The notes beneath the pieces are model-generated. The model was not told the DNA's origin. It made no database searches and was given only the letters and a program-made list of their open reading frames with translations. The position numbers and the translations under genes were made by a program. A stretch of 33,689 nucleotides of DNA from Bacteroidaceae bacterium (GTDB taxonomy: Bacteria > Bacteroidota > Bacteroidia > Bacteroidales > Bacteroidaceae), in contig JAILBW010000065.1 in assembly GCA_024680695.1 (NCBI GenBank), forward strand, positions 1-33,689. Direction: 5' to 3'. Each line of letters begins with the position of its first letter. The stretch's first letter is position 1. Shown here piece by piece: positions 23,305 through 30,419 of this stretch.

Positions 23305-24915
23305 TTACTTCTTGGCCTTGGCTTTTTCCCGTGCCTTGTCGTACTTCTCCCAGAGTTTATTCTTTATGGTAAGGGTTTTCTGCTCCTCGGTGCTGGCCAG
23401 CGCGGCGGCTTCGGCAGCGGCCTCATCCTCGGGCGAGGCGTAGGCGTGGCTGAACTGCGTCTGGAGGTCCCAATAGCCTCGGGTGAAGTCGGGGAAGGCG
23501 ACGGAGGCGCTGTTGTGGTCCATGCTGATGGCACCCAGCTCGGCAAGGCTGCACCACTCGGCCAGGTCATAGACATCCATGTCGAGCGGCAGTCCGTTCT
23601 GCAGGCAATAGACGAGGCGCATGTCCATGAGGAAGTCCATGCCGCCGTGGCCTCCCACCTTCTTGGCCTTCTCGCCGAAGCGTTTCAGGATGGGGTGTTC
23701 GTATTTCTCCTCGAGGGCCTTCTGCTGCTCGGCCGACATGAAGCTGTGGGTGTCGAGCTTGTCGATCTGCGGCACGCCGGTGGACTTCATCGCCGAGCCC
23801 TCGAGGGCATAGCGCGGCTCGGGGTACTTGGTGGCATAGCCCTTGGTGCCGAAGAGCTTGTAGAGGCGGTTGTAGGGGGCGTAGGTCATCACGTCGTGCT
23901 GAATCTCCACGACCTTGCCCTGAGCCGTGCGCATGAGGGTAGTGGAGTGGTCGCCGTTGCGGAAGTTGTCGCACTCACGGCCTGTACGCTTCTCCACGAG
24001 TTCCTTGCCGACGACGCTCTTGGTGTCCATCGCCGTGAGGGTGACAAAGCGGTCGCCGCGATGGATGTTCATGGCTTGGGCCACAGGGCCGAGTCCGTGG
24101 GTGGCATAGACGTCGCCACGATTCTCCATGTTGTACTTCAGTCGCCAGCCAAGGCTGTCGGGGTCGCTGCCGTCGGGATTCTTCCAATAGGCATCCCAGA
24201 AGGGCGAGAGGTTGTGAATATAGGCTCCCTCGGCGCGAACGACCTCGCCGAAGACGCCCTGCTGGGCCATGTTGAGCGCCGTCAGCTCGTACCAGTCGTA
24301 GCAGCAGTTCTCGAGTATCATGCAATGCTTGCGCGTCGACTCGGACAGGTTGATGAGCTCCCAGCACTGCTCGAGGTTCATGGCGCTGGGCACTTCGATG
24401 GCGGTGTGCTTGCCATGCTCGAGGGCGCACTTGGCTACGGGGAAGTGATGGTCCCAGTCGGTGGCCACATAGACGAGGTCGATTTCGGGATTCATGCAAA
24501 GGAGTTCGTAGCCCTTCTCGCCAGAATAGATCTCGGCAGGCGGCAGTCCGGCCTCGCGCAAGAAGCGCTGGCAGGCCTCGGCGCGCTCTTCCTCGTAGTC
24601 GCACAGCGCCACGATCTGCACGCCAGGGATGTGGGTAAAACGGCTCACGGCACCGGGACCGCGCATGCCAAGCCCAACGAAGCCTACGCGCACCGTGGCG
24701 AGGCGGGGAGCGGTAAGCCCGACGACATGCTGCTGTCCGTCGGGGCGGGCAGGAGTGTCAAGGACGATGGTCCCCTCCTCCCAATGCCATTTCGTGGAGG
24801 GGCTCGAGCTTTGGGCCATCATCATCGATGGGCAGCTGGCAAAAGCCAGTAGACAGCAGGCTGCGACCACCAGCCGCACCTGCCTGAGGAATGTAATCGT
24901 TCTCATATCGGTCAT
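23305..24915 (-). CDS. Exported Gfo/Idh/MocA-fold protein resembling GH109 (alpha-N-acetylgalactosaminidase)
   Basis: N-terminal export signal MRTITFLRQVRLVVAACCLLAFASC; VRVGFVGLGMRGPGAVSRFTHIPGVQIVALCDY; HTAIEVPSAMNLEQCWELINLSE; YATHGLGPVAQAMNIHRGDRF. Start 24933, 24915 or 24906 is uncertain. Confidence 0.82.
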   Translation of the reverse strand: MTDMRTITFLRQVRLVVAACCLLAFASCPSMMMAQSSSPSTKWHWEEGTIVLDTPARPDGQQHVVGLTAPRLATVRVGFVGLGMRGPGAVSRFTHIPGVQIVALCDYEEERAEACQRFLREAGLPPAEIYSGEKGYELLCMNPEIDLVYVATDWDHHFPVAKCALEHGKHTAIEVPSAMNLEQCWELINLSESTRKHCMILENCCYDWYELTALNMAQQGVFGEVVRAEGAYIHNLSPFWDAYWKNPDGSDPDSLGWRLKYNMENRGDVYATHGLGPVAQAMNIHRGDRFVTLTAMDTKSVVGKELVEKRTGRECDNFRNGDHSTTLMRTAQGKVVEIQHDVMTYAPYNRLYKLFGTKGYATKYPEPRYALEGSAMKSTGVPQIDKLDTHSFMSAEQQKALEEKYEHPILKRFGEKAKKVGGHGGMDFLMDMRLVYCLQNGLPLDMDVYDLAEWCSLAELGAISMDHNSASVAFPDFTRGYWDLQTQFSHAYASPEDEAAAEAAALASTEEQKTLTIKNKLWEKYDKAREKAKAKK

Positions 24916-24945
24916 AAGTTTTGCAGAATTCATGTTTTGCTGGGG

Positions 24946-24976
24946 TAAAGGTACACAAAAAAAACGAAAGTGCAAA
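24946..24976 (-). promoter_or_regulatory. Bacteroidetes-like promoter TTTG-N19-TACCTTTA (minus)
   Basis: Plus-strand TAAAGGTA 24946-24953 and CAAA 24973-24976; one mismatch to TAnnTTTG. Confidence 0.45.
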
Positions 24977-25123: not shown

Positions 25124-26161
25124 ATGGAGAACGGAGAGAGAAAAACGCCCCTGCTGGGCATGGCACTCGACGAGCTGCGCAACGTTGCAGCCCGTCTGGG
25201 ACTGCCTGCCTACACCGCCGGACAGATGGCGCGATGGATTTATGTGACGCGGACGAACGACATTGCACAGATGACGAATCTTTCACAAAAGGCACGACAG
25301 GCGTTAGAGGCTGACTACGAGGTGGGAGGCTGCGCACCGGTGGGACAGCAGACCAGCGTGGACGGCACGGTGAAGTACCTGTTCCCGACAGAGAGCGGCG
25401 AGCGCGTCGAGTCGGTGTTCATCCCCGATGGCGACAGGGCGACACTCTGCGTGAGCACTCAGGCTGGCTGTCGCATGGGCTGCCGATTCTGCATGACGGG
25501 ACGGCAGGGATTTCAGGGCAACCTGACGGTGCGCGACATCCTGAACCAGATATTCATGCTCCCCGAGCGCGAAAGGCTGACGAACATCGTCTTCATGGGA
25601 CAGGGCGAACCGATGGACAACATCGACGCGGTGCTGAAGGCGACCTCGCTGCTGACTGCCGACTACGGCTTCGCATGGAGCCCCAAGCGCATCACCGTCT
25701 CGACCGTAGGCGTGGGACGGGGACTGAAACGCTTCCTCGACGAGAGCGAGTGCCACCTGGCCATCAGCTTGCACAACCCCTTCCCCGAGGAGCGACAAGA
25801 GATGATGCCTGCCGAGAAAGGCTACGGCATTGCCGAGTGTCTGGACCTCCTGCGCACTCACGAATGGAGCCACCAGCGGCGGCTGAGCTTCGAATACATC
25901 GTCTTCGCAGGACTGAACGACAGCCAGCGGCACGCTCGCGAATTGGTGCGACGGCTCGGAGGATTGCATTGTCGGGTGAACCTCATCCGGTTCCACACGA
26001 TTCCCGACACTCCCTACAAGAGGGCTGCAGAGGAGAGGATGACATGGCTGCGCGACTATCTTTCGCGCCACGGACTGACCGCCACCATTCGCGCCAGTCG
26101 GGGCGAGGACATCATGGCGGCCTGCGGGCTGCTGAATACAGCGAAAAAAAATGAGTTATGA
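25124..26161 (+). CDS. rlmN: 23S rRNA (adenine(2503)-C(2))-methyltransferase RlmN
   Basis: Radical SAM CxxxCxxC in CVSTQAGCRMGCRFCMTGRQGFQGNLT; VFMGQGEPMDN; C-terminal IMAACGLL cysteine. Confidence 0.96.
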   Translation: MENGERKTPLLGMALDELRNVAARLGLPAYTAGQMARWIYVTRTNDIAQMTNLSQKARQALEADYEVGGCAPVGQQTSVDGTVKYLFPTESGERVESVFIPDGDRATLCVSTQAGCRMGCRFCMTGRQGFQGNLTVRDILNQIFMLPERERLTNIVFMGQGEPMDNIDAVLKATSLLTADYGFAWSPKRITVSTVGVGRGLKRFLDESECHLAISLHNPFPEERQEMMPAEKGYGIAECLDLLRTHEWSHQRRLSFEYIVFAGLNDSQRHARELVRRLGGLHCRVNLIRFHTIPDTPYKRAAEERMTWLRDYLSRHGLTATIRASRGEDIMAACGLLNTAKKNEL

Positions 26162-27219
26162 ACCAAGCAAATAAGAAGATGAAAAAGACAGGCTTTTTAA
26201 TTGTATTTGCTGCATTGATGCTGAGCGGCTGCAAGAAGGGGCTCATCTTCCCGATGGCCAGCGGACGCCCTTACGAGGTGCTGGTGGTCATCGACAATGC
26301 ATTATGGGAGGCACCGGCCGGACGCGCCTTGTTCGACATTCTGGACACCGATGTGCCAGGACTACCCCAGTCGGAACGTTCGTTCCGCATCTCGCAGGTC
26401 GAGCCAAAGCACATGGACCAGGCATTCCGCATCTTCCGCAACATCATTCAGGTGAACATCAACCCGCGCCAGTTCTCGCAGACGAGGATGAGATTCATGC
26501 GCGACAAATATGCCATGGAGCAGATTGTGCTCACGGTGAACTCCCCGTCCGAAGAGTCGTTCCGAGAGTTCTGCGTCGCCCATAGGCAGGAAGTGGTGGA
26601 CTTCCTGACCAAGACCGAAATGAACCGACTCATCAAGCAACTGGAGAAGAGGTATTCGAAGGTGACTTACGACCTGGCGTGGCAGAAGTTCGCATGCCGG
26701 ATGTATGCACCCGACGAACTGAAGAGCTACAAACAGGGCGACAACTTCTTCTGGACCAGCAACAACACGGCTTCGGGCATGGAGAACATCTGTATGTACA
26801 GCTACGCCTACGAGGGACCGGAAACGTTCAACAAGGAATACATCCTGCAGAAGCGCGACTCGGTGATGAAGGCCAACCTCCCGGGCGAAAAACCAGGAAT
26901 GTACATGCAGACCGACACGCTGTGCACCGTGGTGAAGCCCATCGTCGTACACGGCGGATATGCGATGGAGGCTCGCGGACTGTGGATTATGCACAACGAT
27001 GCGATGGGCGGTCCTTTCGTGAGCCACAGCCGGGTGGACATGGAGACGGGCCGCGTAGTAGTGGTAGAGGGATTCGTGTATGCACCCGAGAAGATGAAGC
27101 GCGGACTCATGCGCCGCCTCGAAGGGTCGCTATACACCCTGCAACTCCCAGCCGAGCAATACTCGCTGGAAATCGACACAGGCATTGACGAGGAGAAACC
27201 TTCAACCACGGAACAATGA
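26158..27219 (+). CDS. DUF4837-like lipoprotein
   Basis: ATGA overlap with rlmN; alternative start 26179 (MKKTGFLIVFAALMLSGCKKG, lipobox LSGC); position next to the pdxA-like gene. Confidence 0.75.
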   Translation: MNQANKKMKKTGFLIVFAALMLSGCKKGLIFPMASGRPYEVLVVIDNALWEAPAGRALFDILDTDVPGLPQSERSFRISQVEPKHMDQAFRIFRNIIQVNINPRQFSQTRMRFMRDKYAMEQIVLTVNSPSEESFREFCVAHRQEVVDFLTKTEMNRLIKQLEKRYSKVTYDLAWQKFACRMYAPDELKSYKQGDNFFWTSNNTASGMENICMYSYAYEGPETFNKEYILQKRDSVMKANLPGEKPGMYMQTDTLCTVVKPIVVHGGYAMEARGLWIMHNDAMGGPFVSHSRVDMETGRVVVVEGFVYAPEKMKRGLMRRLEGSLYTLQLPAEQYSLEIDTGIDEEKPSTTEQ

Positions 27220-27267: not shown

Positions 27268-27339
27268 TTGAACCCTTGAACCCTTGCGCCCGTCTCTGCC
27301 GCTTCGCCTTTAGTGCGAAGAACTCTTGAACTCTTGAAC
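27268..27339. repeat. Two clusters of the 8-bp tandem motif TTGAACYC
   Basis: TTGAACCC TTGAACCC TTGCGCCC (27268-27291) and GAACTCTT GAACTCTT GAAC (27320-27339). Confidence 0.8.
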
Positions 27340-27351
27340 AAATCATCATAT

Positions 27352-28380
27352 ATGGAAAAGATTAAGATAGGAATCACACACGGCTACACGAACGGAGTGG
27401 GCTACGAAGTGATACTGAAAGCATTCGAGGAACCCACGTTGCTCGAGTTGTGTACACCACTTGTTTACGGCAGTCCGAAACTGGCCTCGTACTACCGCAA
27501 GGCATTGTCGCTGGCCACCAACTTCACCACCATTCAGCGAGCCGAGGATGCTGTGGCCGACCGGCTGAACATCGTGGAGTGCATTCAGGATGAGGTGAAA
27601 GTGGAACTGGGACAAAAGACCGAAGAGGCCGACAAGGCCACAACGGCAAGTATCGAAGCCGCAAGGCGCGCCTACGCCGAAAAGCAGTTCGACGCCCTCG
27701 TACTGGCTCCCGGCGACAAGACGCCCACGGACAGTGGCAGTACCATTCTATTAAATGAACGCGCGCGCGTAGGACTCTTTACCGACGGCATCTCGCTGAG
27801 CGAGGTGAGCAAGCACCTCACAGTCGAAAAGATGAGCAAGAAGCTTGCCGACTTCGACCTCTGCCTCAAGCGCGACTTCGGCATCTCGGGACCACGCATC
27901 GCCGTACTGGCCCTGAATCCCGAGCCGGGCGAAGAAGAGGAAAACATCATCAAGCCCGTCATCGAACAGGCCGCCGAGAAGCACATCTTCGCAATGGGCC
28001 CGTTTGCAGCCGACACATTCTTCGGCTCGCAGGCCTACACCCACTACGACGGCATTCTGGCCATGTATCACGACCAAGGGTACATCCCCTTCCAGGTGAT
28101 CCCGAGCGACTACAACATCATCATGCACTTCGAGGAAGACAACGAGGCAGTGACCATCGCGCAGCTCAACGACGCACAACTCGCATCGGCCGGAAAGGGC
28201 GAAGCCGAGATTACGTCCTTCTGCAACGCCATCTATGCGGCAACTGACGTACTGCGCAACCGCGCTCGCTACGACGAGGCTCGTCGCAACCCATTGCCGA
28301 AACTCTTCCACGACAAACGCGAAGATCTGAGGCGCAGCCCGAAACCTGAGGCACAGAATGCCCCCGACGAAGAGAAATAA
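27352..28380 (+). CDS. PdxA-like (4-hydroxythreonine-4-phosphate dehydrogenase family) protein, divergent active site
   Basis: IKIGITHGYTNGVGYEVILKAF; DFGISGPRIAVLALNP; GPFAADTFFG; GILAMYHDQG; FCNAIYAATDVLRNR. Fold-level PdxA match but several canonical motifs are missing (see findings). Confidence 0.8.
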   Translation: MEKIKIGITHGYTNGVGYEVILKAFEEPTLLELCTPLVYGSPKLASYYRKALSLATNFTTIQRAEDAVADRLNIVECIQDEVKVELGQKTEEADKATTASIEAARRAYAEKQFDALVLAPGDKTPTDSGSTILLNERARVGLFTDGISLSEVSKHLTVEKMSKKLADFDLCLKRDFGISGPRIAVLALNPEPGEEEENIIKPVIEQAAEKHIFAMGPFAADTFFGSQAYTHYDGILAMYHDQGYIPFQVIPSDYNIIMHFEEDNEAVTIAQLNDAQLASAGKGEAEITSFCNAIYAATDVLRNRARYDEARRNPLPKLFHDKREDLRRSPKPEAQNAPDEEK

Positions 28381-28639: not shown

Positions 28640-29893
28640 ATGAAGAATGACATCGACCTGAGACAGTTGAAGCTCCGCTATGGCATAGTCGGACGCGACG
28701 AGGCATTGGACGAAGCGCTGCACACAGCCGTCCAGGTGGCTCGTACCGACCTCTCGGTGCTCATTCAGGGCGAAAGCGGAGTGGGAAAGGAAGTAATCCC
28801 GCGCATCATCCACGACTTCAGCCTGCGCAAGAACAAGCGCTACATCGCCATCAACTGCGGCAGCATTCCCGAAGGCACCATCGACAGCGAGCTCTTCGGC
28901 CACGAGAAGGGTGCCTTCACAAGCGCCATCGGCGAGCATGAGGGATACTTCGGGGCGGCCGACGGCGGAACGCTCTTCCTCGACGAAGTGGGCGAACTGC
29001 CCCTGAGCACTCAGGCCAGACTGCTGCGCGTCCTCGAGACGGGCGAGTACATCCGAGTGGGCAGCAACGAGCCGCGCCACACCAATGCGCGCATCGTGGC
29101 GGCAACTAATGTGGACATTCCCCACGCCATTCGCGAAGGACGCTTCCGCGAGGACCTCTACTATCGTCTCTGCACCATCAACATACAGATGCCGCCCCTG
29201 CGCCAGCGACATGGCGATGCAGTACTGCTCTTCAAGAAATTCGCGCTGGACACAGCCGCCAAATACAACATCCCCGAGCCCATCCGCCTCACGCCCGAAG
29301 CCGAAGAGGTCGTGAACAGATACAAGTGGCCGGGGAATATACGCCAACTGCTGAACATTACCGAACAGCTCAATATCCTCTCGCAGGAGCGCACCATCAC
29401 GCCCCAGCTACTTGCCAAGTACGGCATCGTGCCCAATTCCGACGAGACAGGCATCGCGCCGCTCAAGCCCAAGACGGCAGGTACGGAGCATCGCGACTAC
29501 GAGAATGAAATAAAGTGGCTGGCGAGCGCCGTGATGGAGCTGCGCAAGGAGGTGAGCGAACTGTCGGCTCTCGTACACTCCCCGCACGACACCACGAACC
29601 TCTCCCCCGCCCCGCTCAATCAGGTTGCGCCGCAGACCACCACGCTGGCCCCACCAAACCACACCATCCATCCCGCATCGCCATCCGCGGTACGCCCCAT
29701 CGAGGACGAAATACAGACCCCAGAGGAGATCGTGGAGGAGGACGAGAACCTGAACCTCTTCGAGATGGAGAAGCGAAACATCCTCAAGGCACTCCAACGC
29801 GCCCACTATCGCCGCAAGGCTGCCGCCGAGGATCTGGGTATCAGCGAACGCACACTATACCGAAAGATTAAGGACTATGGCATCGAAGAATAA
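28640..29893 (+). CDS. Sigma-54-dependent transcriptional activator (AAA+ and Fis-type HTH, no receiver domain)
   Basis: Walker A GESGVGKE; SELFGHEKGAFTSA; GGTLFLDEVGELPLSTQARLLRVLE; Fis HTH KAAAEDLGISERTLYRKIKDYGIEE. Confidence 0.93.
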   Translation: MKNDIDLRQLKLRYGIVGRDEALDEALHTAVQVARTDLSVLIQGESGVGKEVIPRIIHDFSLRKNKRYIAINCGSIPEGTIDSELFGHEKGAFTSAIGEHEGYFGAADGGTLFLDEVGELPLSTQARLLRVLETGEYIRVGSNEPRHTNARIVAATNVDIPHAIREGRFREDLYYRLCTINIQMPPLRQRHGDAVLLFKKFALDTAAKYNIPEPIRLTPEAEEVVNRYKWPGNIRQLLNITEQLNILSQERTITPQLLAKYGIVPNSDETGIAPLKPKTAGTEHRDYENEIKWLASAVMELRKEVSELSALVHSPHDTTNLSPAPLNQVAPQTTTLAPPNHTIHPASPSAVRPIEDEIQTPEEIVEEDENLNLFEMEKRNILKALQRAHYRRKAAAEDLGISERTLYRKIKDYGIEE

Positions 29894-30419
29894 GGCGTTA
29901 CGCACCATCCGATGCCGAGCCATGCAGGCCTGCCTGCTGCTCCTGTGCATCCTGCCCGTGGCCTGCAAGGTGGAGTACCGCTTCAATGGCGCAAGCATCG
30001 ACTACACCACGACGAAGACCATCCAGATAGACAACTTCCCCATCCGTAGCGCCTACGTCTGGCCGCCGATGCAGAGCATCTTCCAGAACAAGCTGACCGA
30101 CATCTACGCCCACCAGACCAAGTTGCGGCAGGTGAAGAAGAACGGCGACCTGCAACTGGCAGGCGAGATCGTGAGCTTCGACCAATTCAACAAGTCCATC
30201 TCGAGCGACGGATATAGCAGTCAGGTGCAGCTGAAGATGACCGTAAACGTCCGCTTCGTGAACAACAACAAGCATGCCGACGACTTTGAGCGACAGTTCT
30301 CGGCTACGGCAAGCTACGACGCCTCACAGCAGCTGACGGCCGTACAGGAAGAACTCGTCACCCAGATGACGAAGGACATAACCGAACAGATTTTCAACGC
30401 AACCGTAGCCAACTGGTAA
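29877..30419 (+). CDS. LptE-family lipoprotein (LPS assembly)
   Basis: Lipobox ILPVACKVEYRFNGASIDY...TIQIDNFPI; 17-nt overlap with the sigma-54 activator gene. Confidence 0.8.
   Translation: MASKNKALRTIRCRAMQACLLLLCILPVACKVEYRFNGASIDYTTTKTIQIDNFPIRSAYVWPPMQSIFQNKLTDIYAHQTKLRQVKKNGDLQLAGEIVSFDQFNKSISSDGYSSQVQLKMTVNVRFVNNNKHADDFERQFSATASYDASQQLTAVQEELVTQMTKDITEQIFNATVANW

Follow-up and report, generated by a model that had tools for sequence, protein, structure and literature searches.

A probable PdxA-derived pseudoenzyme in the rlmN–DUF4837 locus of a Bacteroidaceae bacterium, and its retention in relatives without PdxJ

The stretch analysed here (the window) is a contig of 33,689 nt (JAILBW010000065.1) from the assembly GCA_024680695.1 of a Bacteroidaceae bacterium. 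At positions 27352..28380 of the plus strand it carries a complete open reading frame for a 342-aa protein that derives from PdxA but has lost its catalytic residues. We consider this protein likely to be a pseudoenzyme that has been retained for a non-catalytic role older than a swap of vitamin B6 pathways, a role probably exercised by showing its C-terminal tail to a partner. The preliminary description of this DNA had already suggested a pseudoenzyme, and the suggestion is borne out by the loss of the active site, the kept fold, purifying selection on the gene and at least eight parallel transitions in the state of pdxJ among its relatives.

The gene order rlmN–DUF4837–pdxA, previously read from the letters alone, was recovered by Pfam matches in the window. 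Upstream lie rlmN (25124..26161, plus strand; PF04055 and PF21016), which served as a yardstick of divergence and for the tree, and, as the immediate neighbour, a DUF4837 gene (26158..27219, plus strand; PF16125, 355.9 bits), which defines the slot in our survey of other genomes. Downstream are genes for a sigma-54 activator with an N-terminal AAA+ domain (PF00158) and a Fis-type HTH (PF02954; 28640..29893, plus strand) and for LptE (29877..30419, plus strand; PF04390), then those for a TPR protein and, at the position of secG, for a small protein. The PdxA-derived frame is uninterrupted, as had been noted. A GTG at 27313 provides an alternative upstream start, but the ATG at 27352 was taken as the start because it yields the MEKIKIGI beginning common to the homologues. 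A second, more distant DUF4837 gene (about 270–285 bits) is found elsewhere in G000 and in most genomes of the genus. On the minus strand, positions 23305–24975 of the window encode a Gfo/Idh/MocA protein with a glycoside hydrolase 109 C-terminal domain; a 521-aa open frame opposite this gene is probably spurious.

The protein scores 190.9 bits against PF04166, well over the gathering score of 27, and no other PF04166 gene, and hence no second pdxA, was found in the source assembly (83% complete). It misses by more than 100 bits the cut-off of the NCBIfam PdxA equivalog TIGR00557 (171.5 bits against 290.35) and likewise that of NF002891, D-threonate 4-phosphate dehydrogenase (64 bits against 583). 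An AF2 model based on 33 sequences (pLDDT 89, pTM 0.85) has the PdxA fold, with target-normalised TM-scores over the whole chain of 0.81 to 1yxo and 0.80 to 1ptm, in keeping with the earlier statement that the fold-level blocks of PdxA remain. The protein thus resembles PdxA (4-hydroxythreonine-4-phosphate dehydrogenase; E. coli 1PTM, 1PS6 and 1PS7, P. aeruginosa 1YXO) in its whole-chain fold and by clear sequence homology, and its gene sits in the genomic slot where the canonical pdxA of Bacteroidaceae is found. PdxA2-type D-threonate 4-phosphate dehydrogenase (6E85) and terephthalate dihydrodiol dehydrogenase (4ATY and the 8ZJ entries) belong by sequence and structure to the same fold superfamily, but the window protein scores lower against them than against PdxA itself. 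Both are active metal-dependent dehydrogenases, whereas only one of the three metal ligands is left in the window protein.

Active-site positions were mapped by alignment to E. coli PdxA and to the canonical PdxA of a congener (L053). The three metal-binding histidines (E. coli 166, 211 and 266) are represented by Gly, Glu and His: Gly146 (27787..27789) replaces His166, Glu191 (27922..27924; NPEPG versus NPHAG) replaces His211 and is followed by a 6-residue deletion, and His240-Asp241 (28069..28074) are the kept equivalents of His266-Asp267. The substrate-phosphate loop with GHT (E. coli Gly135–Thr137) is deleted, with the junction between residues 123 and 124 (27718..27723). Tyr12 (27385..27387) takes the place of the acidic residue (E. 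coli Glu13) of the N-terminal G(D/E)xxG motif, Gln248 (28093..28095) that of Lys274, and an altered segment (28111..28176) that of the GVN..AGLP..RTSPDHGT block; Ile257 and Thr268 stand at the positions of Asn283 and Arg292. All of these features are on the plus strand. The alignment agrees with the losses given in the preliminary description, namely the absence of GHTE, the replacement of His166, His211, Lys274 and the RTS block, and the change from an acidic residue to Tyr. That description had left only His266, and possibly Asn283, among the survivors; His266 is indeed kept, but Asn283 is not, and Asp247 (as D221) and Asp267 persist as well, making these three the only active-site residues retained. 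No displaced copies of the missing motifs were found in the alignment to the E. coli and congener proteins. Judged from its residues, the window protein is almost certainly devoid of catalytic activity.

The enzymes that would flank PdxA in its pathway appear to be missing too. Neither PdxB nor PdxJ was found in the source assembly (83% complete), and PdxS, the DXP-independent PLP synthase, was not found there either. G010 (the genome of L003), which is the closest congener whose genome is complete (100%), has PdxS but neither PdxJ nor the PdxB marker DUF3410; G000 and G010 are both among the genomes listed without a DUF3410 match. It is extremely improbable that the gene still encodes a 4-hydroxythreonine-4-phosphate dehydrogenase active in vitamin B6 synthesis. 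Such an enzyme would have the observed PdxA fold and PF04166 match above cut-off, but the protein misses the equivalog cut-off, retains just one of three metal ligands and lacks Lys274, the phosphate-binding loop and the RTS block; no PdxJ to take the product and no PdxB marker to supply the substrate were detected.

Of 151 Bacteroidaceae genomes, 115 had a PdxJ match and 144 a PdxA match; all full-length PdxA matches below 310 bits were in genomes without PdxJ. DUF3410 is encoded in 105 genomes, including only three without PdxJ (G026, G028 and G139), where the missing PdxJ is probably an assembly gap; G026 and G139 have a normal PdxA. All 26 genomes with PdxS lack PdxJ (Fisher p 2e-21, not corrected for phylogeny or shared ancestry); a few other genomes without PdxJ also have no PdxS match. 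As PdxS provides another de novo route, most lineages without PdxJ are not B6 auxotrophs, and auxotrophy following the loss of B6 synthesis was dropped as an explanation for most of them. The affected organisms are many Bacteroidaceae, mostly from the rumen. Several lineages of the family would thus have dropped the DXP-dependent route (PdxB, PdxJ), most of them now having PdxS, and PdxA catalysis would thereby have become useless and its active site free to erode.

The three metal histidines are present in 103 of 103 PdxJ-positive loci and all ten key residues in 102 of them (these loci come from 89 genomes, including one, G242, in which PdxJ is missing, probably owing to an assembly gap). 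Of the 88 genomes without PdxJ, 68 have none of the three histidines, 14 have one, a single genome has two and five have all three, with the alignment of the shortest proteins being uncertain. Erosion is seen at different stages, from little (G140) through several residues (G013) to most of the site (g14, g17 and g23), and the window protein is the most eroded among the near-full-length ones. When the presence of PdxJ is mapped on a tree of 103 RlmN proteins encoded in the surveyed loci, 13 changes are needed, at least eight of them forced by well-supported branches. The tree itself does not distinguish gain from loss; loss of PdxJ is the natural reading because the family in general has PdxJ and a canonical PdxA. 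Genome G054 (L219) has PdxJ but no DUF3410 match, encodes a PdxA whose residues 247 and 274 are Glu and Arg, and is sister to the PdxJ-negative genomes G001 and G031; it perhaps represents an early stage of the pathway swap. A PdxJ-negative genome titled Paludibacteraceae encodes a PdxA without His166, His211 and the C-terminal tail (L042:5001-5975), which by its sequence appears to be an independent case of a kept, degenerate PdxA outside Bacteroidaceae.

In the genus of the window, the Pfam model detects PdxA in only 73 of 139 genomes. The resulting impression that PdxA is absent from about 60 PdxJ-negative genomes of the genus is refuted by the slot itself, which carries divergent PdxA-derived frames. 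We located the slots through DUF4837 and read 64 of them from PdxJ-negative genomes together with those of G000, G010 and G060; every slot not cut by a contig end (as that of G201 is) has at the PdxA position an intact ORF of 214–400 aa. Proteins of two groups (260–280 aa and 214–239 aa) fall below Pfam recognition. In profile comparisons made without the tail, groups c and d match canonical PdxA with E values of 7e-23 and 5e-19, respectively. The body of group e (220–236 aa) falls short of canonical PdxA on its own (56% probability) and links to group d at 95% (E 2e-8), while its full-length profile matches canonical PdxA at 97%, so that the homology of group e to PdxA rests on a chain through group d, the slot and the tail. 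A model of the 280-aa L037 protein has the PdxA fold (pLDDT 85, TM 0.64 to 1r8k). The most derived orphans, i.e. PdxA-derived proteins in genomes without PdxJ, are shorter by up to about 150 residues, those of the active-site loops among them.

Several other unusual pdxA genes were encountered. In three loci of the 214–221 aa group (L156, L166 and L170), two genes that by eye are IspD-like and CDP-alcohol-phosphatidyltransferase-like separate the PdxA-derived ORF from the sigma-54 activator gene. A second PF04166 gene, which may encode a PdxA2-like enzyme, occurs in some genomes (L097 in G122, and in G058, G077 and G109); the L097 protein has no Bacteroidaceae tail. Long low-complexity C-terminal extensions bring the PdxA of L031, L032, L049 and L072 to 429–517 aa in total, with KQEPK repeats in Saprospira grandis, and in a Saprospiraceae assembly (L040:4989-6064) PdxA is split between two overlapping frames, by a sequencing error or a frameshift.

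The preliminary description had favoured selected divergence over decay, and the substitution pattern agrees with it. Pairwise Nei–Gojobori estimates, which show purifying selection without measuring its strength precisely, gave dN/dS of 0.17 (dS 0.90) for the window gene and its nearest relative (L003/L076, 76% identity), close to that of rlmN (0.15) in the same comparison; the values for the other neighbours were 0.10 (DUF4837), 0.06 (sigma-54 activator) and 0.10 (lptE). Against L154, the ratio was 0.13, at a saturated dS of 1.82. Other orphan pairs mostly fall between 0.05 and 0.47, and those at low dS agree with this: L162/L176 (0.14, dS 0.13), L198/L203 (0.19, dS 0.49), L186/L193 (0.21, dS 0.55), L147/L155 (0.23, dS 0.39) and L166/L174 (0.08, dS 0.80). 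At equal RlmN distance (0.60–0.61 identity), PdxA identity is 0.60 in PdxJ-positive pairs versus 0.36 in PdxJ-negative pairs. This faster evolution, and the fact that lineages have lost residues and length to different degrees, would suit a relic gene that has been decaying slowly and neutrally since the pathway swap. We regard such decay as very unlikely, since the dN/dS values of the window gene and of other orphans are clearly below 1, the assessable slots of the genus hold no stops despite very deep divergence, the C-terminal tail is conserved across groups, and the active site has been lost in parallel over at least eight pdxJ transitions with the ORFs intact.

The best-conserved part of all the PdxA-derived orphans is the end of the C-terminal helix together with a Bacteroidaceae-specific tail, in the window protein residues 293–325 (28228..28326, plus strand; AIYAATDVLRNRARYDEARRNPLPKLFHDKRED). 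A comparison of 59 orphans shows no conservation at any catalytic residue, and the top positions are a few core residues and AxDxxRNRxxYDEARxNPLPKLFxDKRED, which ends in the 13-residue tail motif NPLPKLFxDKRED. Canonical Bacteroidaceae PdxA has a related extension of the NPLRKQYYEKRDDSDKLKLD type, whereas E. coli PdxA has none. In the body, mean identity is 0.66 among canonical proteins and 0.27 between orphan groups; in the tail, the corresponding values are 0.62 and 0.56. The tail alone resists erosion and is therefore the prime suspect for the working part, for which we put the chances at about even. In the AF2 model, it is of low confidence (pLDDT about 50–66). It does not seem to be a motif common to other proteins: a search with the tail profile found this gene alone in each of 10 genomes, with no second match of any weight, and there was no sequence match in the PDB. 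Some PdxJ-positive genera (g11 and g12) have divergent tails. The tail cannot account for every retention, as the degenerate PdxA of the PdxJ-negative L042 is kept without it.

Synonymous sites in the tail show no depletion of changes, so that the constraint there acts on the protein. This bears on the possibility that the ORF is retained for its nucleic acid, whether to keep the operon transcribed or translated or to hold the promoter of the next gene. The same slot is occupied in all assessable PdxJ-negative genomes of the genus, and in some orphans only a few bases separate the start codon from the DUF4837 stop, as one would expect on such an account. However, it is the amino acids that are constrained, with synonymous change free, the tail included, and the downstream gene varies by lineage, so that one cis element serving one neighbour is no explanation. 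We therefore give retention at this level little credence. Retention for a non-catalytic function of the protein is, by comparison, a proposal that we hold with considerable confidence.

The preliminary description had also offered a dehydrogenase with a different substrate, which is less likely, since the lineages do not share any other conserved catalytic set. More broadly, the PdxA scaffold might have been rebuilt into a new enzyme acting on another substrate, perhaps without metal or with another metal site. Purifying selection is compatible with this, and g14 and its relatives do share a consistent altered site (GQT and Tyr at 266, with Lys274, Asn283 and Arg292 kept), as a new activity might produce. 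Nevertheless, the orphan lineages have no set of residues at the former active site in common, selection persists in the most derived orphans even though the active-site loops are among the residues that they have lost, and the most constant part, the tail, lies outside the catalytic centre. A new enzyme thus appears unlikely, although less so than decay or retention of the nucleic acid.

If the PdxA-derived protein is instead a pseudoenzyme, as we prefer, its folded body may serve as a scaffold or carrier, and putatively as a dimer scaffold, from which the tail motif NPLPKLFxDKRED could dock onto a conserved cellular partner. By analogy with PspA and PspF, we considered the protein as a regulator of the sigma-54 activator encoded next to it. 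The analogy is not supported: both the protein and its tail persist in other genera, and no sigma-54 activator gene adjoining the PdxA-derived gene was found in the flanks fetched from several of them. We propose that the protein was kept because the PdxA of the family already had a second, non-catalytic function. Bacteroidaceae PdxA would then be bifunctional, combining B6 synthesis with a widely needed non-catalytic role residing in the C-terminal tail, and repeated loss of the B6 role would have pared the protein down, in the extreme to 214-aa forms that escape recognition as PdxA; this wider proposal could as well be wrong as right.

In keeping the fold, losing catalytic residues and remaining under purifying selection, the window protein resembles other pseudoenzymes derived from metabolic enzymes, but the recurrence of the loss in parallel after a pathway swap is unusual. 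Our search of the open-access literature turned up no description of a PdxA that is dead or orphaned, or of a PdxA pseudoenzyme. Rodionov and colleagues list, for gut genomes, PdxST and PdxJ(A) as variants of B6 synthesis (PMC6593275), in passages that do not remark on the kept PdxA. A transposon study of P. gingivalis reported pdxA to be essential in vitro (PMC3547785), which fits either role of the protein.

These genomes amount to a natural experiment run at least eight times, in which the pathway around an enzyme was removed and the gene stayed. Annotation pipelines may call such proteins PdxA and so count a B6 step that is absent, and the most reduced members escape annotation altogether. 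The part that survives, some of the fold and the 13-residue tail motif, marks where the function may lie. That function is testable, and the family supplies a protein, a motif and a set of mutants for a function that is probably also present in the ordinary PdxA of gut Bacteroides.
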